A program made the translations under genes and the position numbers. A DNA stretch of 64,000 bases from Bradyrhizobium ontarionense. Lineage in GTDB: Bacteria; Pseudomonadota; Alphaproteobacteria; Rhizobiales; Xanthobacteraceae. The stretch's first letter is position 1. The number at the start of each line of letters is the position of its first letter. The stretch is taken from the NCBI RefSeq assembly GCF_021088345.1, contig NZ_CP088156.1, forward strand, positions 6,510,001-6,574,000, written 5' to 3'. The notes under the pieces were generated by a model, which was not told where the DNA came from, ran no database searches, and was given only the letters and a program-made list of their open reading frames with translations. Below are positions 12,853-25,614 of this stretch, piece by piece.

Positions 12853-13086
12853 ATCGAGCGCCCTTGTGCGAGGCGCCATCTCATCCGTCGATCTGCCCGT
12901 CGGCTTGTGTGGCGGCGGCATTCGCCTGAGTGGCTCCGCTCCGGTGGGCGAATGGTGGCGCCGGAGCACGAGCGCCGGCTCGGAATATTGCCTGACGAAC
13001 TAACTATTTGCTCGACAGCTGCCGCGCACGATCCATGCCCGTATGACGGAGTTGTGACCCGTTGCGTGCAAAATCAGCCGACGATC

Positions 13087-13100
13087 TTGACTCAAATCAA
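13087..13100. promoter_or_regulatory. FixK/FNR-type anaerobic activator box
   Basis: The sequence ttgactcaaatcaa has the symmetric TTGA-N6-TCAA core and differs by one base from the consensus TTGAT-N4-ATCAA. Its centre lies 69 bases before the transporter ATG. A tacaca hexamer at 13120-13125 is placed near where a -10 element would be if the box were centred about 41 bases upstream of transcription start, the normal position for activation by FixK2 or FNR. This suggests that transporter, frdABCD and the RquA-like gene are induced by low oxygen. Confidence 0.7.
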
Positions 13101-13162
13101 CCGGTCGATGTCGTTGCAGTACACATTGCCGCTGTGCCACACAACGACGTGACGGACGGGCA

Positions 13163-14680
13163 ATGAACTTCCACTCGGCTGCTTTCCTGCTTGAACATTC
13201 GCGCCGGGAGGGCGGGGCCGTCAGGCCCCATATCAATCGCCGCCTGCTGGCTGCGCTCGCCCCGCTTGCGGTCGGAACCGTCATGGCACTGGTGCCGCCG
13301 CCTGCGGGCCTGCCGCAATACAGCTGGTGGTACCTGTCGCTGTTCGTCACTGTCATCATCGGCCTGATCACCGAGCCAATTCCCGCAGCAGCCATCGGCT
13401 TTCTCGGCGTCACGATGGCCGCGGTGCTCGGCCGCTTCGTGCTGTTCTCTCCGGCCCAGCTCGCCACGACGAACACGACCAGCGGCGCCATCAGCTGGGC
13501 GCTGTCCGGCTTCTCGAATGCAACCGTCTGGCTGATCTTCGCGGCCTTCGTGTTTTCGCTCGGCTATGAGAAGACGGGGCTGGGCAAGCGGCTGTCGCTG
13601 CTGCTGCTGTCGCGGCTGGGAGGCCGCACCTTGACACTCGGCTATGCGGTCATGCTGGCGGACCTGATCCTCGCGCCCTTCATGCCGTCGAACACCGCGC
13701 GCAGCGGCGGCACGATCTTCCCGATCATCAAGAACATTCCGGGCTTCTATCAGTCGCTGCCGAACGACCCGTCGTCGCGCCGCGTCGGCGGCTTCCTGAT
13801 GTGGACGGCGATCGCCTCCACCTGCGTCACCTCCTCGATGTTCGTGACGGCGCTGGCGCCGAACGTGCTGGCAGTCGAGCTGATCCGCAAGACGGTCCAC
13901 GTCGACATCGCCTGGATGCAATGGTTTCTCGCCTTCCTGCCGACCGGGCTGGTGCTGCTCGCCACCACGCCGCTGCTCGCCTACCGCCTCTATCCGCCGG
14001 AATTGAAGGAGAGCCCGGAGGTGCCGACCTGGGCGCGCAGCGAGCTGGCCGCGATGGGGCGTTTGTCGGGCCGCGAGATCACGCTGCTGGTGCTGGTCCT
14101 GCTGGCGCTCGGGCTGTGGATCTTCGCCACCGCGATCATCGACCCGACCACGGTGGCGCTGCTGGTCGTGAGCCTGCTGGTGGTCACCGGCACGATCGGG
14201 TGGAGCGACGTGCTGGAGGACAAGCCGGCGTTCAACACGCTGATCTGGTTCGGGACCCTGGTCCCGCTTGCCAGCGGCCTCACGCAGACCGGCATCATCG
14301 CGTGGCTGGCCGGGCTCGTGGGCCCGGCGCTGTCGACGATGACCCCGCTCTGGGGATTGGTCGGCCTGATCGTGCTGTTCTTTCTGCTCCACTATCTGTT
14401 TGCCTCGACCACCGCGCACACCACGGCGCTGCTGCCGCTGATGCTGACGGTCGCAACCGGGATTCCCGGCATCCCGCCGACGACATCGGCCCTGGCGCTG
14501 GCGCTCAGCCTCGGCATCATGGGCATCATCACGCCCTACGGCACGGGCCCGAGCCCGGTCTATGCCGGCAGTGGCTTTCTGCCCGGGCGCGACTATTGGC
14601 GGCTCGGAGCGATCTTCGGCGCCTATTTCCTCATCGTGTTCCTGCTGATCGGCGTGCCGACGCTGCTGTATCTGACCTGA
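13163..14680 (+). CDS. DASS-family (SLC13/CitT-type) dicarboxylate transporter
   Basis: 505 residues with about 12 membrane helices. Family hallmarks are TPYGTGPSPVYAGSGF with DYWRLGAIFG near the C-terminus and PSNTARSGGTIFPI in the middle (the SNT signature of the first half-repeat). It resembles the anaerobic exchangers CitT and TtdT and plant oxoglutarate/malate translocators, so it may take up fumarate or malate in exchange for succinate. The ATG at 13163 follows a ggacggg ribosome site and a FixK-type box. Only 11 bases separate its stop from frdA, which supports a role feeding fumarate to the reductase and exporting succinate. Confidence 0.85.
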   Translation: MNFHSAAFLLEHSRREGGAVRPHINRRLLAALAPLAVGTVMALVPPPAGLPQYSWWYLSLFVTVIIGLITEPIPAAAIGFLGVTMAAVLGRFVLFSPAQLATTNTTSGAISWALSGFSNATVWLIFAAFVFSLGYEKTGLGKRLSLLLLSRLGGRTLTLGYAVMLADLILAPFMPSNTARSGGTIFPIIKNIPGFYQSLPNDPSSRRVGGFLMWTAIASTCVTSSMFVTALAPNVLAVELIRKTVHVDIAWMQWFLAFLPTGLVLLATTPLLAYRLYPPELKESPEVPTWARSELAAMGRLSGREITLLVLVLLALGLWIFATAIIDPTTVALLVVSLLVVTGTIGWSDVLEDKPAFNTLIWFGTLVPLASGLTQTGIIAWLAGLVGPALSTMTPLWGLVGLIVLFFLLHYLFASTTAHTTALLPLMLTVATGIPGIPPTTSALALALSLGIMGIITPYGTGPSPVYAGSGFLPGRDYWRLGAIFGAYFLIVFLLIGVPTLLYLT

Positions 14681-14691
14681 AGAGAAAGCTC

Positions 14692-16479
14692 ATGGATTTC
14701 TTCAACGCCGACATCCTGGTGCTGGGCGCCGGCGGCGCCGGATTGCGGGCCGCCATCGCGGCGGCGCAATCCGCGCCGGACATGACCGTCGCGCTGGTCT
14801 CGAAAGTCTATCCGATGCGCAGCCATACGGTCGCCGCGGAGGGCGGCTCGGCGGGCGTGGTGCGCGCCGATGACAGTCTCGACAACCACTTCAACGACAC
14901 GGTGGAGGGCGGCGACTGGCTGTGCGAGCAGGACGTCGTCGACTATTTCGTCGGCCACTGCACCCGGGAGATGATCCAGCTCGAACACTGGGGCTGCCCG
15001 TGGAGCCGCCAGCCGGACGGCCACGTCAACGTCCGCAAGTTCGGCGGCATGAAGGTCGAACGGACCTGGTTCGCGGCCGATCGCTCCGGCTTTCACATCC
15101 TACACACCCTGTTCCAGACCTCGACCAAGTTTCCGCAGATCCGTCGCTTCGACGAATATTTCTGCGTCGATCTGATCGTCGATGACGGCCGGGTGCAGGG
15201 CGCGGTGGTGCTGTCGCCGGCGACCGGCGAGTTCACCGCGATCCGCGCCCGCGCGGTGGTGATGGCGACGGGCGGGGCAGGGCGGGTGTTCCGCCAGAAC
15301 ACCAATGGCGGCATCGTCACCGGCGACGGCATGGCGCTGGCCTTCCGCCACGGCGTGCCGCTGCGCGACATGGAGTTCGTGCAGTATCATCCGACCTGCC
15401 TGCCCGGCACCGGCATCCTGATCACCGAGGGATGCCGCGGCGAAGGCGCGCTGCTCGTCAACAAGGACAACTACCGCTACCTCCAGGACTATGGCCTCGG
15501 TCCCGTCACCCCGGAGCCGCGCAACAAGTTCATGGAGCTTGGCCCGCGCGACCGGCTGAGCCAGGCGTTCTGGCAGGAGGAGCGCAAGGGCCGCACCGTG
15601 ACCACGCCGCAGGGCGAGGCCGTGCTGCTCGATCTGCGCCATCTCGGCGCGGCCAAGCTGAAGGAGCGGCTGCCGCTGATCTGCGAGCTCGCCAAGAGCT
15701 TTGCCGGCGTCGATCCGGTGACGGCGGCGATCCCTGTGCGCCCGGCGGTGCACTACACGATGGGTGGCATCCTGGTCGACATCGACACGGCCTCGCCCCT
15801 GGCCGGCCTCTATGCCGCGGGCGAATGCTCCAGCGTCGGCATCCACGGCGCCAACCGTCTCGGATCGAATTCGCTGGCCGAGCTCACGGTGTTCGGCCGC
15901 GTCGCCGGCGAGCAGGCGGCCGCATTCGCCAAGGCGGCGCCGGCGGCGGACGCCCGAAGCGCCGATCAGGCGCGCGCGATCGAGGCCAAGGCGCTGGCGC
16001 TGTTGCAGCAGAACGGCGACGGCGAGCGTCACGCGGCGCTGCGCACGGAAATGGCCGTGAGCATGGAGCGCGGCTGCGGCATCTACCGGCTCGGCCCGGA
16101 GATGCAGCAGACGTGCGAAACGATCGCGCAACTGAAGCAGCGCTATCAGCATGTCGCGCTGGAGGATCGGTCGCGGGTCTGGAACACCGATTGGATCGGG
16201 GCGATCGAGCTCGGCTATCAGCTCGATGTCGCCGAGGCGATGGCGCATGCGGCGCTGGCCCGCAAGGAGTCGCGCGGCGCCCACCAGCGGCTCGACGGCT
16301 TCGACAAGCGCGACGATGCGAATTACCTCAGCCACAGCCTGGCGCATTATCAGGAGGGCGCCGCGCCGCGCATCACCGCCCAGCCGGTCAAGATCACGCG
16401 CTCGCCGCCCGGACAGCGCGCCTATGGCGCGCTCGGCGAGCAACTCGAAGCAGCTCGCAAAGATGCAACCCATGCCTGA
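14692..16479 (+). CDS. frdA: Fumarate reductase flavoprotein subunit
   Basis: 595 residues, close to the 602 of E. coli FrdA. It reduces fumarate to succinate on the cytoplasmic face. The Rossmann motif GAGGAG is at 12-17 and the covalent-FAD histidine is His45 in MRSHTVAAEGGSAG. The substrate and capping region shows YHPTCLPGTGILITEGCRGEGA, and VHYTMGGI provides the second active-site His. Similarity to E. coli FrdA rather than to mitochondrial-type SdhA is supported by the following frdB, frdC and frdD. The start at 14692 follows agagaaag; a much longer upstream open frame is the shadow of the transporter gene. Confidence 0.93.
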   Translation: MDFFNADILVLGAGGAGLRAAIAAAQSAPDMTVALVSKVYPMRSHTVAAEGGSAGVVRADDSLDNHFNDTVEGGDWLCEQDVVDYFVGHCTREMIQLEHWGCPWSRQPDGHVNVRKFGGMKVERTWFAADRSGFHILHTLFQTSTKFPQIRRFDEYFCVDLIVDDGRVQGAVVLSPATGEFTAIRARAVVMATGGAGRVFRQNTNGGIVTGDGMALAFRHGVPLRDMEFVQYHPTCLPGTGILITEGCRGEGALLVNKDNYRYLQDYGLGPVTPEPRNKFMELGPRDRLSQAFWQEERKGRTVTTPQGEAVLLDLRHLGAAKLKERLPLICELAKSFAGVDPVTAAIPVRPAVHYTMGGILVDIDTASPLAGLYAAGECSSVGIHGANRLGSNSLAELTVFGRVAGEQAAAFAKAAPAADARSADQARAIEAKALALLQQNGDGERHAALRTEMAVSMERGCGIYRLGPEMQQTCETIAQLKQRYQHVALEDRSRVWNTDWIGAIELGYQLDVAEAMAHAALARKESRGAHQRLDGFDKRDDANYLSHSLAHYQEGAAPRITAQPVKITRSPPGQRAYGALGEQLEAARKDATHA

Positions 16480-17230
16480 TACGACAGCGAAGACGACGAT
16501 CGAACTGCGCATCCTGCGCTATTGTCCGTCCACGGACACCGAGCCGGCCTTCGGATCCTTCCAGGTGCCCTACAGCGACGACATGTCGGTGCTGCAGGCG
16601 CTGCAGGAAATCAAGGCGACGCTCGACGGCAGCCTGGCGTTTCGCTGGTCCTGCCGCATGGCGGTGTGCGGCAGCTGCGGCATGATGATCAACGGCGAGC
16701 CGAAGCTCGCCTGCAACACCTTCCTGCGTGACCTCGCGCCCGGTCCCGTTACGGTCGAGCCGTTGCAGAATTTTCCGATCGAACGCGACCTCGTCGTCAC
16801 CGTCGGCGATTTCGTCAAGAAGATCGAGAGCATCTATCCCTACGTGATGCCGAAGGTGCCGAAGACGGTGGAGGAAGGGACGTATCTGCAGACGCCTTCG
16901 CAGATGGAAGCCTATGCGTCCTTCGCCGACTGCATCAACTGCATGCTGTGCTATGCGGCCTGTCCGCAATACGGCGCCAATCCCGACTTCATCGGACCGG
17001 GCGCGATGGCGCTGCTGCAGCGTTATTCGAGCGATTCCCGCGACGGCGGCCAGCAGGCCCGGCTCGATCAGATCCGCGGCGAGGACGGCGTGTGGTCCTG
17101 CACCGCCGTCGGCATCTGCTCCGAAGTCTGCCCGAAGCAGGTCGATCCGGCCAACGCAGTGAACCAGAACAAGAGCAATAGCGCGCTCGACTTCTTCCTG
17201 AGCGGCCTGCGCAAGGAAAGCGTGACATGA
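16472..17230 (+). CDS. frdB: Fumarate reductase iron-sulfur subunit
   Basis: 252 residues carrying the three clusters of FrdB. The [2Fe-2S] ligands lie in WSCRMAVCGSCGMM and a following LACNTF, the [4Fe-4S] ligands in CINCMLCYAACP and the [3Fe-4S] ligands in CTAVGICSEVCP. The segment NFPIERDLVV is nearly identical to E. coli FrdB. It passes electrons from the membrane quinol to FrdA. The start is within the end of frdA; an alternative in-frame ATG lies at 16463. The stop overlaps the frdC start (ATGA), so the four subunits are translationally coupled. Confidence 0.93.
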   Translation: MPDTTAKTTIELRILRYCPSTDTEPAFGSFQVPYSDDMSVLQALQEIKATLDGSLAFRWSCRMAVCGSCGMMINGEPKLACNTFLRDLAPGPVTVEPLQNFPIERDLVVTVGDFVKKIESIYPYVMPKVPKTVEEGTYLQTPSQMEAYASFADCINCMLCYAACPQYGANPDFIGPGAMALLQRYSSDSRDGGQQARLDQIRGEDGVWSCTAVGICSEVCPKQVDPANAVNQNKSNSALDFFLSGLRKESVT

Positions 17231-17631
17231 GCGAACGTCGTCCCTATCTGCGGCCGCAGCCGCGCACCTGGTGGGCGCATCCGCCATATCGCGCCTACAC
17301 CATCCGCGAATTGTGCGGCGTCGCGCTCGCCGTCTACGGCGCGATCCTGCTCGCCGGGCTGGTCTGCCTCGCGCGCGGCCCGGCAGCGTTCGAGAGCTAC
17401 CGCGCGTTCCTGGCAAGCCCGCTGTCGCTCGCACTCCATCTGCTGCTGCTGGCGGCTGCGCTCTGGCACATGGTGACCTGGTTTCGGATCCTGCCGAAGA
17501 CGATGCCCAAGCTCGTCTGGCACGGGAAGCTGGTGCCGCAGGCACTGATGACGCAAGCGGCGACGTTGCTTGCGGTGGGCTGTTCGGTCGCGCTCCTGGC
17601 GCTGGTCGTCGTGGTGGGAGCATGGTCATGA
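17227..17631 (+). CDS. frdC: Fumarate reductase membrane anchor subunit C
   Basis: 134 residues with three membrane helices. The start RRPYLRPQPRTWWA parallels the E. coli FrdC start (RKPYVRPMTSTWW). The third-quarter motif ALWHMVTWFRILPKTM corresponds to E. coli AALLHTKTWFELAPK, including the His/Trp/Phe pattern near the quinone site. With FrdD it anchors FrdAB and forms the quinol-oxidising site. This heme-free two-anchor type normally uses low-potential quinones. Confidence 0.92.
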   Translation: MSERRPYLRPQPRTWWAHPPYRAYTIRELCGVALAVYGAILLAGLVCLARGPAAFESYRAFLASPLSLALHLLLLAAALWHMVTWFRILPKTMPKLVWHGKLVPQALMTQAATLLAVGCSVALLALVVVVGAWS

Positions 17632-18011
17632 GCGTGCCGAAGGATTCGCCGCTGCCGAAGCGGACCATCGCGCCGCTGTTCTGGCTCCTGTTCGGCGCCG
17701 GCGGCATGCTGTCGGCCTTGTTCGGCCCGGCGCTCATCCTCATCACCGGGATCATGATCCCGCACGGCTGGGGCGTGCCGGAGCGCCTCGGCAGCTACGA
17801 CACGGTGCTTGCCTTTGCGCGCAATCCGCTCGGCAAGCTGGTGCTGCTGGCGCTGATCGCGCTGCTGTTCTGGCATGCGGCCGAGCGGCTGTTTCTCACC
17901 CTGCACGACATGCGGGTGGGGACGGTGACGGTGCTGCGCTGGCTGACCTACGGCGTTGCCTTTGTTCTGACGATCGTCACGGCGGTCGTCCTGCTCATGG
18001 TCGGCTTCTGA
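17628..18011 (+). CDS. frdD: Fumarate reductase membrane anchor subunit D
   Basis: 127 residues, three membrane helices. PLFWLLFGAGGMLSALFGP matches E. coli FrdD (PVFWGLFGAGGMWSAIIAP), and TVLAFARNPLGKL and the HDMRV segment also align. The ATG at 17628 overlaps the frdC stop by ATGA; another in-frame ATG lies at 17622. Completes the membrane anchor of the fumarate reductase. Confidence 0.92.
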   Translation: MSVPKDSPLPKRTIAPLFWLLFGAGGMLSALFGPALILITGIMIPHGWGVPERLGSYDTVLAFARNPLGKLVLLALIALLFWHAAERLFLTLHDMRVGTVTVLRWLTYGVAFVLTIVTAVVLLMVGF

Positions 18012-18061
18012 CCCCTCGCGCCGGCCTCTGTTCTCCATCCAGGTGGTTTCACGTGCTTCAC

Positions 18062-18736
18062 ATGACTTCGGACGCCCTGCGTGTCCCTTCCTATCTGCGG
18101 GACGTGTACGGCTGGGCCTATCTGACGCCATCGCTCGCGCGCTGGCTCGACCGGCAGGTCGTGGTGCAGACCATCCTCTGGGGCAATGCACAGCGCCTGA
18201 TCGGCGACGTGCTCGCCGAGGTGAAGCCGGGTGACCGCGTGTTCCAGCCGGCCGCGGTGTATGGCGATTTCTCGCGCCAGGTCGCCGCCAAGGTCGGGAC
18301 CGACGGCAAGCTCGATGTGCGCGACATCGCACCGCTGCAGGTCGATCTGACGCGGCGCAAGCTCGCTGATTTGCCGCAGGCCCATGTGGCGTGCGGCGAC
18401 GCCGCCGATCCGCACGCGCAGCAGGCCGACGTCGTCGCCTGCTTCTTCCTGCTGCACGAGGTGCCCGACGATCTCAAGGTCCGGATCACGCGCGCGATGC
18501 TGGCGCAGGTCGCGCCCGGTGGGCGGGCCGTGTTCGTGGACTATCATCGTCCCGGCCGGTTCCACCCGCTGAAGCCGCTGATGCGCCGGATCTTCGACTG
18601 GCTGGAGCCGTTTGCCCAGCGCATGTGGCAGAGCGAGATCCGCGATATCGCAGGACCCGCGGCCACCGGCTTCCGCTGGCGCAAGCGGACGCGGTTCGGC
18701 GGTCTCTATCAGATCGTCGTTGCCGAGCGCGCCTGA
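18062..18736 (+). CDS. rquA: Methyltransferase-like protein, probable rhodoquinone biosynthesis RquA
   Basis: 224 residues of the class I methyltransferase fold related to UbiE/UbiG. The normal Gly-rich SAM loop is replaced by FQPAAVYGDFSRQ; later motifs are LDVRDIAPLQ, VVACFFLLHEVPDD and PGGRAVFVDYHRPGRFHP. Loss of the GxGxG loop with retention of the fold is what distinguishes RquA, which converts ubiquinone to rhodoquinone using SAM as amino donor in Rhodospirillum. The gene lies 50 bases after frdD in an organism group that lacks menaquinone, so a rhodoquinone-forming role makes sense. A GTG at 18053 has a better-placed ribosome site (aggtgg, 18041-18046) and may be the true start. It could instead be an ordinary UbiE-like methyltransferase. 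Confidence 0.68.
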   Translation: MTSDALRVPSYLRDVYGWAYLTPSLARWLDRQVVVQTILWGNAQRLIGDVLAEVKPGDRVFQPAAVYGDFSRQVAAKVGTDGKLDVRDIAPLQVDLTRRKLADLPQAHVACGDAADPHAQQADVVACFFLLHEVPDDLKVRITRAMLAQVAPGGRAVFVDYHRPGRFHPLKPLMRRIFDWLEPFAQRMWQSEIRDIAGPAATGFRWRKRTRFGGLYQIVVAERA

Positions 18737-21909: not shown

Positions 21910-22224
21910 GCGAACGATGTTGTCGCGAACCGGCGTCGGCTTCAAGCCGTAGCCCCTCGGTTGCGCGCCTCGCCCCCAATGATCGTTAACCCGCCGCACC
22001 GCCGTTAAGGTTGCCAGGAGCTTTCGTTGGATAGCGGAACCTAATACTCCCGCAACGCAGCACGGTGGTGCATTGATTGAACGCAGTTGCAAGCATGCAA
22101 CCCGTGTACAACCGCCGCAGGGCTGCGACGGCTCGGGCTCAGCGTTGCGCCCGAACGTCCGCGATCGCCTGCAGCGAGACCAGAACGCAGATCTTGGATG
22201 AACTCGATTCGGGGTGTCGTGGAT
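21910..22224. other. Intergenic region between divergent GNAT and membrane-protein genes
   Basis: About 315 bases with no credible coding sequence. Two gttaa segments (near 21984 and 22004) do not have the spacing of a CtrA site. Presumably holds the two divergent promoters. Confidence 0.4.
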
Positions 22225-23754
22225 ATGAAGCGCGGAACGGTCGATCATCAGTTGCGTCGTTTGCAGGCGGAGCAGACGTTCGATCCGCGCACATGGCGCG
22301 AGCGGCGGCTCGGCAGGGCCGTCCCGTTCTACGGCTCGGAGCTGTTCCAGCTCGGCTGCCCGCCGTTGGCCTCCTTCATCGCCGCCTTCCTCGGCTGCCT
22401 GATGACGCTGCATTTGAGCACATCCGGCCTGTCGCCGCTGATTGCCTCCGCAACGGCCGCGCTGCTGCTGAGCTCGTCGCTGATCCTGACCCGGACGGCC
22501 GACCTGGTGCCGAGCACTTTCTTCTCCTCTGCCTATGGCGGCAGCTTCGTCGGCATGACTCCGGTGACGCTCCTGAACGCGAGCGTCATCCGGGCCGGAC
22601 TGCCGCTCGATGCCGCCTTCATCCTGCTATCGCTGTTCTGCGGACTGGTGTTCTGTCTTGGTTGTGCGCTCGACATGTGGCTGCGCGGCGGGTTAGCCCG
22701 TGGCTATGGCGGACGACTGGGCGCGCTCGCGGCGGTCGCATCCTTCCTGTTCGTCGGCCTGGCGCCGATGCTCGGCGCCGAAGGTGAGATGCTTCCGATC
22801 GTACGCCGCGGTGTGCTGGAGCAGGGGCTCGGCGCGGTCGCAATCACGTTCGCGCTGTGCACAGCCGGGATGTTGGCGACCATGGCCGCCCTGCGCTGGG
22901 CGCCGGTCGCGGGGTCGCGGCGCGCGGTCCGCATCTTCGTCGCCGCGACCGTTGCGTTCGCCGGCCTCGTGGTGCTCCAGCAGTTCGTGCCCAGCGAGGC
23001 CTGTGATCTCGACGCCTATTATGCCGGTTGCTTCGTCGGCATGTCGTCACCGCGGCGATTGCGCAGCCTGCTGCAGGCGATGGCCGCGGCGGTTCTGCTG
23101 ACGGCTCTGATGGTCCTGACCTGTCCGATCCTGCCTGCCGTCGGCGGCAGCCTCGGATATGTGGCCTTCGTTTCAGTCATCTTCGTCGACGCGGCGGTCC
23201 GGCTGTTCGTCGAAGCGGGAGAATCGCCGCGGCAGACCATGATCGCGTGGACGCGGGGCCTCGTCGCCGCATTGGCCATTCTGGGTGTGCTGCTGCCGAG
23301 CGAGCTGCTCATCGGGCGGCCGCCCGATGAGCAGACCGGCTCGATCGCGAATGTGGACCAGCCGGTTGCGCCAACGGCTGCACGGCTCTCGGGCCCATCG
23401 GAAGCGGAGGATGTGCGGGACGCTTTGAGCAAGGTGTCTGGCGAGCCGGCGCCCGCCGCCGGAGCAGGACCCGATTTGCCCATGCAGATCTTGAACCCTG
23501 ATAGCGGCGAGCTGCTCCGCGCGCGGGGGCGCGGCGAGCACGCCCACGGCGCGGCGCCATCGTCCGTAGAGCCGCCCCGGCGCGTCGTCCGCTATGGTCA
23601 GGTCATTGCAACGGGAGCGCAACCGGCGTCCGTCAGGCGCAGCCAGGTGCGTGTCGTGCCGCAGTCGATCCCCAGGCCGCGCGTCGTGGCTCGGCAGGAC
23701 CTGCAGCCGGCGCAGGAGTGGCGCCCGGATCCGTCGACCTCGGCAGGTCAGTGA
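22225..23754 (+). CDS. Unknown polytopic membrane protein, paralog 1
   Basis: 509 residues. About 330 residues of hydrophobic helices are followed by a polar Pro/Ala/Arg-rich tail of about 150 residues. Two similar signatures occur in the membrane part, AYGGSFVGM (103-111) and AYYAGCFVGM (264-273), each after a pair of helices, which points to an internal duplication. A third Gly-rich VGGSLGY follows. It shares length, motifs and layout with the next gene (24079-25614), so the two are tandem paralogs. I do not recognise the family; a transporter is plausible. The start at 22225 was chosen by comparison with the paralog; an in-frame ATG also lies at 22198. Confidence 0.65.
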   Translation: MKRGTVDHQLRRLQAEQTFDPRTWRERRLGRAVPFYGSELFQLGCPPLASFIAAFLGCLMTLHLSTSGLSPLIASATAALLLSSSLILTRTADLVPSTFFSSAYGGSFVGMTPVTLLNASVIRAGLPLDAAFILLSLFCGLVFCLGCALDMWLRGGLARGYGGRLGALAAVASFLFVGLAPMLGAEGEMLPIVRRGVLEQGLGAVAITFALCTAGMLATMAALRWAPVAGSRRAVRIFVAATVAFAGLVVLQQFVPSEACDLDAYYAGCFVGMSSPRRLRSLLQAMAAAVLLTALMVLTCPILPAVGGSLGYVAFVSVIFVDAAVRLFVEAGESPRQTMIAWTRGLVAALAILGVLLPSELLIGRPPDEQTGSIANVDQPVAPTAARLSGPSEAEDVRDALSKVSGEPAPAAGAGPDLPMQILNPDSGELLRARGRGEHAHGAAPSSVEPPRRVVRYGQVIATGAQPASVRRSQVRVVPQSIPRPRVVARQDLQPAQEWRPDPSTSAGQ

Positions 23755-24078: not shown

Positions 24079-25614
24079 ATGGCCGATCTTCATGCCGGGG
24101 GTTCGCAAGCGCCGCAGGCGTTCGATCCGCTTGCATGGCGGGAAGGCCTGCGCCAGCCGCTTCTGGCGCTCTATCTCGTGCCACTGGCCTCATTCGCGGG
24201 CGCCTTTCTCGGTTGTCTCGCGACCTTGCATCTCACGAGGTCAGGCGTGCCGCCGGCACTCGCGTCCGCCACTGCCACGCTGCTGCTCTGCGCAGCCCTG
24301 ATTGTCGAACCGACCAGGGATCTCATCCCGACGACCTTCTCGTCCTCCGCCTATGGCGGCAGCTTCAGCGGCATGACATCGATCGTGACGCTCAGCGAGA
24401 GCGTGGCGCGCGCAGGCCTGCCGGCGAGCGCGTCGTTCATCCTGCTGTCGGTGTTTTGCGGCCTGGTGTTCTGCACCGTCTGCGCGATCGAGATGCGCAT
24501 GCGCGTCGTGCTGTTGCGCGGCTATGGCGGCCGTTTCGGGGCACTCGCCGCGGTCGGCTCGTTTCTCTTCCTCAGCCTTGCGCCGCTGCTCGGCCCCGAA
24601 GGCGAGGTGCTCCACCTCGCGCGTCTCGACGAATTCGACAAGGGGCTCGGCGATTCCCTCGTCATCTTTGCCTCGTGCCTGGCCGGGATGTTCGCGACCA
24701 TCTTCGCGCTGAGGTCGCCCAACGTCGCCGGCTCGGGGCGGGCGGCACGCATCTTTACCTCCGCCGCCGTGGCCTTCCTCGGTCTGGCGATCCTGCAGCA
24801 GCTCCGGCCCGGCGATGGCTGTCTCGTCGATGCCTATTATGCGGGTTGCTTTCTCGGCATGTCATCGTCGCAGCGGTTGCGTGGCCTGGTCGAGCCGGTC
24901 GTGGCTGCGGCGGCGCTGACGGTGTTTCTGGTCCAGGCCTCGGCGATCCTGCCCAGCGTCGGCGGCAGCCTCGGCTTCGCCGCCTTCATCGTCGTGGTTG
25001 CTGTGGATGCCGCGCGCCGGGTCGGCCGCTTGCTTCCGCTGCATGATCATCCCGCGGCGGTCGGGCTCGGTCGGGGCCTTGCGGCTGCGCTCGCCGTCGC
25101 GGGCCTGCTGCTGCCGAATTCCGCGTTCCATGTGGAGGCGGTCGTCGAGACGACCGGCTCGATCCCGCGCGTGGAGACGTCGGTTGCGGCGCGTGCTCCG
25201 GCCGATCTGCCCGACGAGCCGGCGGCGGAAGCGACCGTAGCGGCAGCTCCGAGCAGCACGCCCGGCGATCCGCCGCCGGCCGCTGACTGGAAACCCGACA
25301 TCCTCCCTCCCGTGATCCCTCCTCCCGTCGCGACGCCCGTGCGCAACGAGCTGCCGCGGCCGCGCCACGCCAGCCGATCCGCGCCGGTTTCTCCGCGATC
25401 GCTTCCAGACGATCCAGGGCCCTGGCGCATCATCCACGCTGGACAGCCGGCGCGCCCCAGAGCAGGAACGACGACCGGTCCTCAGCCGGCGCCCGCGAAG
25501 CGCGGTCCGATGCGCGTCGTGGTCCCGACCGTGGTGTCGTCCCGTCCGGCGTCGCGCTCTGAGCCTCAGCGCGTGCGGGAGAGCCAACCCGCGCCTGCCG
25601 CGCCCGCGCCCTGA
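24079..25614 (+). CDS. Unknown polytopic membrane protein, paralog 2
   Basis: 511 residues, a clear paralog of the preceding gene. Aligned landmarks are FDPLAWREGL at the start, SSAYGGSFSGMT and DAYYAGCFLGMSSSQRL at the two repeat positions, and LPSVGGSLGFAAF before the last helices. The C-terminal 150 residues are Pro/Ala/Arg-rich and poorly conserved between the two copies, so selection acts mainly on the membrane core. The stop lies 12 bases from the convergent stop of the Hsp70-like gene. Function unknown. Confidence 0.68.
   Translation: MADLHAGGSQAPQAFDPLAWREGLRQPLLALYLVPLASFAGAFLGCLATLHLTRSGVPPALASATATLLLCAALIVEPTRDLIPTTFSSSAYGGSFSGMTSIVTLSESVARAGLPASASFILLSVFCGLVFCTVCAIEMRMRVVLLRGYGGRFGALAAVGSFLFLSLAPLLGPEGEVLHLARLDEFDKGLGDSLVIFASCLAGMFATIFALRSPNVAGSGRAARIFTSAAVAFLGLAILQQLRPGDGCLVDAYYAGCFLGMSSSQRLRGLVEPVVAAAALTVFLVQASAILPSVGGSLGFAAFIVVVAVDAARRVGRLLPLHDHPAAVGLGRGLAAALAVAGLLLPNSAFHVEAVVETTGSIPRVETSVAARAPADLPDEPAAEATVAAAPSSTPGDPPPAADWKPDILPPVIPPPVATPVRNELPRPRHASRSAPVSPRSLPDDPGPWRIIHAGQPARPRAGTTTGPQPAPAKRGPMRVVVPTVVSSRPASRSEPQRVRESQPAPAAPAP

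Follow-up and report, generated by a model that had tools for sequence, protein, structure and literature searches.

We analyzed a 64,000-nucleotide stretch of the Bradyrhizobium ontarionense genome, which is a single contig of 8.44 Mb. This stretch is hereafter called the window, and positions refer to it unless a locus is named. Between positions 13163 and 18736, the window carries six genes, all on the + strand and head to tail, which domain models identify as a DASS transporter gene, frdA, frdB, frdC, frdD, and rquA. Judged from sequence comparisons, the operon most likely serves to convert ubiquinone to rhodoquinone, which would then carry the electrons for fumarate reduction when oxygen is low. 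We assign a probability of roughly 0.78 to the reading that these genes form a single transcription unit that serves fumarate reduction via rhodoquinone.

The predicted frdABCD-rquA operon

The transporter gene and frdA are separated by 11 nucleotides, the next three junctions overlap by 8, 4, and 4 nucleotides, and 50 nucleotides lie between frdD and rquA. An initial annotation had listed a FixK/FNR-type box, a DASS transporter, and frdABCD with coupled starts; domain models and coordinates located each of them where it had been placed. It had also described the last gene as a divergent methyltransferase-like gene. This is appropriate in the sense of sequence divergence and incorrect as a statement on orientation, as rquA is co-directional with the other five genes. 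Between positions 12900 and 19300, a consensus scan yielded no sigma-70-like site. The same region contains five terminator-like sites, compared to 2.8 expected in shuffled sequences, and all three on the + strand lie within coding sequence. A recent foreign island was considered on the basis of base composition and rejected, because the G+C content of the operon (0.672) does not contrast with that of the window (0.659).

The rquA gene (18062..18736, + strand) encodes a protein of 224 residues, by family a rhodoquinone synthase, which scored 293.7 bits with the RquA equivalog model NF038261 (cut-off 175), whereas the best UbiE model gave 30 bits (cut-off 378). In 14 control genomes, NF038261 produced weak matches in nine and none over the cut-off. 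In a tree of 87 rows, the window protein was placed inside the 85 RquA rows, with UbiE and UbiG of Escherichia coli outside (support 97/93); the outgroup branches are very long and the bootstrap is not fully settled. The initial annotation had proposed that grouping with UbiE/UbiG would speak against RquA, and neither the tree nor the models revealed such a grouping. By these comparisons, the last gene is RquA and not UbiE/UbiG. The tree assigned it to a starred clade of six, together with Bradyrhizobium STM 3843, a Bradyrhizobium metagenome-assembled genome (MAG), an alphaproteobacterial MAG, and two uncultured Rhodopila. The UniRef name of the STM 3843 protein is already rhodoquinone biosynthesis protein.

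Joint replacement of Asp118 and Asp143 in RquA of Rhodospirillum rubrum abolishes rhodoquinone synthesis (PMC9814641). Their probable counterparts in the window protein are Asp88 and Asp113, a mapping that relies on one constant offset of 30, with the R. rubrum sequence itself absent from the alignment. Among 20 chosen RquA relatives, Asp88 is invariant and Asp113 is kept in all but one. The window protein thus shares with RquA of R. rubrum and other Pseudomonadota both the NCBIfam equivalog and, at this offset, the two aspartates of the S-adenosylmethionine (SAM) site (PMC9814641, PMC11707229). Judged by the offset, its N-terminal part lacks about 30 residues compared to the R. rubrum protein, of which the first 40 residues are dispensable (PMC9814641). 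Expression in E. coli with RQ8 as the readout has been reported for the rquA gene of Magnetococcus marinus (PMC11707229).

Two observations on RquA-like proteins are recorded here in their own right. In a group of small genomes (family f38, 1.2–3.1 Mb), RquA-like proteins scored 155–186 bits and thus straddle the RquA cut-off; they are candidate RquA proteins or a sister family. An FrdD match was found in one of 146 RquA-like proteins, the apparent FrdD-RquA fusion P0258 (392 residues, from a 2.2-kb metagenome contig). The end of its FrdD part does not align with the window FrdD and is seemingly out of frame, so that it probably reflects a frameshift, and it was not used as evidence.

The four frd genes, all on the + strand, are predicted to encode the four subunits of a fumarate reductase. 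FrdA (14692..16479; flavoprotein, 595 residues) scored 960.9 bits with TIGR01176 (cut-off 932.7) and 1030.5 with NF006686 (854), and its best PDB match is the fumarate reductase flavoprotein 1kf6. The iron-sulfur subunit FrdB (16472..17230; 252 residues) reached 363.9 bits with NF009051 (333). The membrane anchors are FrdC (17227..17631; 134 residues; PF02300, 138.3 bits, cut-off 24.2) and FrdD (17628..18011; 127 residues; PF02313, 132.5, cut-off 25; NF003977, 113.1, cut-off 60). FrdA, FrdB, and FrdD are thus all above NCBIfam equivalog cut-offs. A second FrdA homologue, 43% identical and taken to be SdhA, is encoded elsewhere in the genome; therefore, the window Frd is an extra complex.

Compared to E. 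coli FrdABCD (1kf6), the window complex has the same four subunits in the same gene order. In E. coli numbering with Met1, it keeps R29, E30, H83, and W87 of FrdC, W15 of FrdD, and C205, T206, and K229 of FrdB, residues which, apart from the glutamate treated below, we take to have roles at the quinol site. It differs from the E. coli system in that no menaquinone genes were found in its host (see below) and in two positions that we presume to lie near the quinol site: in all four window-type clusters, Asn replaces FrdB Q226 and Glu replaces FrdD H81. The remaining aligned rows, E. coli among them, have Gln at position 226 of FrdB (four rows) and His at position 81 of FrdD (seven rows). Both replacements may be a re-tuning from menaquinol to rhodoquinol. 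FrdC also has the conserved Arg-Glu pair of the quinol site. Its Glu28 corresponds to E. coli Glu29 (numbered without Met1), which is Glu in 11 of 11 aligned sequences and has been proposed as a proton shuttle (PMC5907181).

Upstream of the operon, a FixK2/FNR-type box, TTGACTCAAATCAA, occupies positions 13087..13100 (+ strand), 76 nucleotides ahead of the first start codon. It fits the FixK2 consensus TTG(A/C)-N6-(T/G)CAA (PMC5582078) as one of five such matches in the window, and it is the window's sole match to TTGAY-N4-RTCAA. All four window-type clusters have the box, at 76, 82, 73, and 89 nucleotides from the first start codon, whereas the remaining upstream DNA hardly aligns. The box described in the initial annotation is thus conserved where the surrounding DNA diverges. 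When each upstream region was shuffled at the mononucleotide level, a match turned up in 0.6–0.8% of cases; across 1.38 Mb of retrieved loci, the background density of matches was 0.081 per kb. We infer that FixK or FNR binds at this predicted box. Among the 16 named frdABCD-rquA loci, 13 from other organisms had no FixK-type box within 300 bp of the first-gene match start, which only approximates the start codon; the remaining three are two window-type clusters and L140, which lacks upstream DNA. Therefore, among the loci examined, the box is particular to the Bradyrhizobium loci and locus L109. No FixK-type box was found before the Rhodopila rquA genes.

The first gene (13163..14680, + strand) encodes a DASS-family dicarboxylate transporter of 505 residues that is antiporter-like and scored 460.9 bits with TIGR00785 (cut-off 198.6). 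Over about 470 residues, it shares 50% identity with CitT and 49% with TtdT, the two E. coli members to which the antiporter comparison was confined. These are annotated as citrate:succinate and tartrate:succinate antiporters, respectively, and the kinship favours exchange with succinate by the window transporter. Its four matches among solved structures are 6wu1 and 6wtw of the DASS family and the plant chloroplast dicarboxylate transporters 9mcu and 9mcr; 6wu1 and the chloroplast proteins are presumably exchangers.

Distribution and two cluster types in Bradyrhizobium

Of 265 Bradyrhizobium genomes including that of B. ontarionense, five encode RquA above the cut-off, while every one of the 265 gave a weak match to the model. 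FrdC was above the cut-off in four, again including B. ontarionense, and a fifth genome, G166, fell below it with 21.5 bits. All four FrdC genomes are among the five RquA genomes. If both genes were independent, the chance of such an overlap would be about 2.5e-8. This figure overstates the strength of the test, since these genomes share ancestry and the underlying events number perhaps two or three. A class-wide sample of 385 genomes, B. ontarionense included, contained 13 with FrdC matches, five of them above the cut-off, and 25 with RquA at E ≤ 1e-30. One of the five, G858, has a partial match of 66 residues with 24.6 bits. RquA is present in three of the other four (B. ontarionense, G783, and G946). 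Among the proteins of a clustered database, at least 22 contigs are common to 120 listed FrdA and 120 listed RquA proteins when contigs of equal size are taken as the same. Three further shared contigs were identified by eye, one of them the 4.3-Mb chromosome of Methylocella silvestris.

Within the genus, the genes occur in two arrangements. The order DASS-frdABCD-rquA is common to the window, STM 3843 (G101), contig C104 of the Bradyrhizobium MAG D3_Bin_4 (G177; locus L107), and L109; in STM 3843, a contig break separates frdC from frdD. The window and STM 3843 also share the flanking DNA on both sides, whereas G177:C104 and L109, within the DNA compared, match in the operon only. In the second type, found in genome G155 and on contig C114 of G177, frdABCD and rquA are convergent. 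The RquA proteins of this type are 39–41% identical to that of the window and remote from it on the RquA tree. G177 thus carries both types. A FixK/FNR-type box precedes frdA of the second type in G155 (about 94 nucleotides) and G177:C114 (about 96 nucleotides). It also precedes rquA in G155 and in another RquA genome, G134, at about 190–258 nucleotides (G134: about 190); no box was found ahead of rquA in G177:C114. In the latter cluster, frdA is in pieces (L045, 1068-4221): its frame is broken near the start, and some 1.4 kb of other sequence splits its middle, through either an insertion or a misassembly.

The Frd proteins of the two types also differ in their relatives. FrdA of the window type was sister to E. 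coli FrdA in two trees (99/100 and 100/99), and FrdA of M. silvestris, Rhodoblastus, and Tardiphaga grouped with it. This sister placement must be taken as provisional, because the initial portion of FrdA is missing from the E. coli row and E. coli was the only gammaproteobacterium sampled for this FrdA type. FrdA of the second type grouped weakly (86/83 and 83/81) with MAGs of Kiloniellales and Rhodobacteraceae. The cluster is rare in Bradyrhizobium and seems to have originated within the genus on more than one occasion. We tentatively suggest, as a serious possibility short of an even chance, that relatives of Bradyrhizobium put together a capacity for fumarate respiration with rhodoquinone at least two times, each from its own set of components. 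One assembly would have joined an Frd sister to the menaquinone-using E. coli enzyme, with FrdB Q226N and FrdD H81E, to an alphaproteobacterial RquA, and the other a Kiloniellales/Rhodobacteraceae-type Frd to a remote RquA, both under FixK/FNR-type boxes.

Proposed function and alternative explanations

The initial annotation had assumed a host that makes ubiquinone and no menaquinone, and the gene content agrees with this. MenD was above the cut-off in none of seven genomes searched, although all seven gave matches at E ≤ 0.001 (best score in B. ontarionense, 69.5 bits against 244.2), and MqnA was unmatched in all six genomes searched; both sets include B. ontarionense. Menaquinone was therefore rejected as the Frd partner. 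The B. ontarionense genome encodes UbiT (77.9 bits, cut-off 46.9), UbiU (514.6, cut-off 440), and UbiV (373, cut-off 275) in adjacent genes on one strand (L202). Matches to the U32 family (UbiU/UbiV) were obtained for 58 of the 265 genus genomes. Four of the five RquA genomes are among them, and the one that is missing, G177, is assembled to 88% completeness. This distribution fits the association with RquA that Chobert et al. reported for 73 of 84 RquA genomes (PMC11707229).

According to our model, falling oxygen would activate a FixK/FNR-type regulator, which would then bind the conserved box at 13087. RquA, which belongs to the family and retains its key residues, would swap one methoxy group of ubiquinone for a SAM-derived amino group, as characterized RquA proteins do, and thereby provide low-potential rhodoquinone. 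UbiT, UbiU, and UbiV, whose genes are present, would still make ubiquinone without oxygen. An NADH dehydrogenase or another low-potential donor would reduce rhodoquinone. FrdABCD, as its subunit homology and conserved quinol-site residues suggest, would oxidize rhodoquinol and convert fumarate to succinate. In view of its kinship with succinate antiporters, the DASS transporter would exchange internal succinate for external malate, fumarate, or another C4-dicarboxylate.

Several observations weigh against this model. The window FrdC scored 87.6 bits with NF003445, below the cut-off of 143, although it reached that of PF02300; by its scores, it is an anchor of the FrdC family and not the NCBIfam equivalog. 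G177:C104 has a window-type cluster, and its RquA (L046, 1632-2279, − strand) carries Asn at the position of Asp113. G134, a 99%-complete genome, encodes RquA (G134:C188, i.e., L048, 11290-11955) without FrdC. Full frdABCD was present at 16 of 80 named RquA loci, many of them with short flanks, and three more have distant FrdA/FrdB matches; therefore, RquA often serves without a neighbouring Frd. Conversely, the alphaproteobacterial genome G549 (L203) of the class sample has E. coli-type frdA, frdB, and frdC, a partial frdD match, and UbiU/V-type U32 genes. No RquA at E ≤ 1e-30 and no MqnA were found in it, and MenD was below the cut-off, so that its Frd is without a visible low-potential quinone. 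No FixK-type box lies within 400 bp upstream of ubiT. Finally, an annotated rquA of the class GWC2-55-46 yielded no rhodoquinone in E. coli (PMC13386864), and thus the name rquA alone is no proof of function.

The same enzymes might instead act as a redox valve, which would pass excess electrons of a phototrophic or microoxic cell via rhodoquinone to internal fumarate, with succinate being excreted. R. rubrum is a precedent for redox balancing. The B. ontarionense genome has two Photo_RC genes of the PufL/PufM type (G000:C1:3526088-3527773), which makes the host a potential phototroph. Moreover, the RquA clade of the window includes two uncultured Rhodopila, and the phototroph Rhodopila globiformis makes rhodoquinone in addition to ubiquinone and menaquinone (PMC12542754). 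Photo_RC genes were, however, detected in only two of 12 genomes searched (B. ontarionense and G177) and not in STM 3843, which shares the cluster, and the transporter suggests that solutes pass between the cell and its surroundings. We regard the redox valve as possible but rather doubtful. In another alternative, the transporter would be a plain uptake carrier for C4-dicarboxylates and the operon no exchange system. The NCBIfam family name, DASS family sodium-coupled anion symporter, points in this direction, whereas the identity to TtdT and CitT and the chloroplast dicarboxylate transporters among the solved relatives argue for exchange, and a plain uptake carrier is unlikely.

Complex II enzymes are reversible in principle, and the window complex could be a second succinate dehydrogenase working with ubiquinone, with RquA being incidental. 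FrdA falls, however, with E. coli FrdA and far from the homologue taken as SdhA, and FrdC and RquA co-occur in the genus, which leaves this explanation with very little probability. Least probable of all is an ordinary UbiE/UbiG-like methyltransferase as the last gene. The gene does match models for generic methyltransferases and UbiE weakly, but the RquA and UbiE scores and its position among RquA in the tree outweigh this, so that such an assignment is hardly credible. Rhodoquinone-dependent fumarate reduction is the reading we prefer.

Relation to known systems and implications

Stairs et al. (2018) reported rquA to be often no more than 15 genes away from respiratory genes, including those of complex II, with which it may share an operon, and named Rhizobiales among the orders with rquA (PMC5953543). 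The window resembles these cases in having rquA beside complex II and a second sdh-like gene elsewhere. It differs in its E. coli-FrdA-sister complex, the DASS gene in first position, and the FixK/FNR-type box, which are undescribed in section 8 (PMC5953543). The word Bradyrhizobium is absent from the main text of that article. In contrast to the E. coli genes for CitT and TtdT, the DASS gene of the window sits with frd and not with genes for citrate lyase or tartrate dehydratase. The initial annotation had considered a self-contained module of this kind in a Bradyrhizobium-like genome to be of real interest. Its interpretation is supported by the sequence comparisons, but it overstated the novelty, since rquA near complex II was published in 2018 (PMC5953543). 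A literature search by titles and abstract openings, with subscription journals mostly outside its range, returned no description of such a cluster. As far as these searches show, the new elements are the combination of a succinate-antiporter-like gene, an E. coli-sister Frd, and RquA, together with the FixK-type box, the rarity in the genus, and the putative double assembly.

Elsewhere in the window, positions 22087-23754 and 24079-25614 contain long open frames (555 and 511 residues) with coding-like third-position G+C content and no Pfam match at 1e-5.

Bradyrhizobium is known for respiration with oxygen and nitrate. Within the genus census, FrdC occurs only in genomes with RquA (four of the five), and this co-occurrence seems to have come about along more than one path. 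Should the operon function as proposed, the genus would gain a further oxygen-free way of life, in which succinate is excreted. If the double assembly is true, anaerobic growth in flooded soil or nodules would be open to some Bradyrhizobium even when nitrate is lacking.

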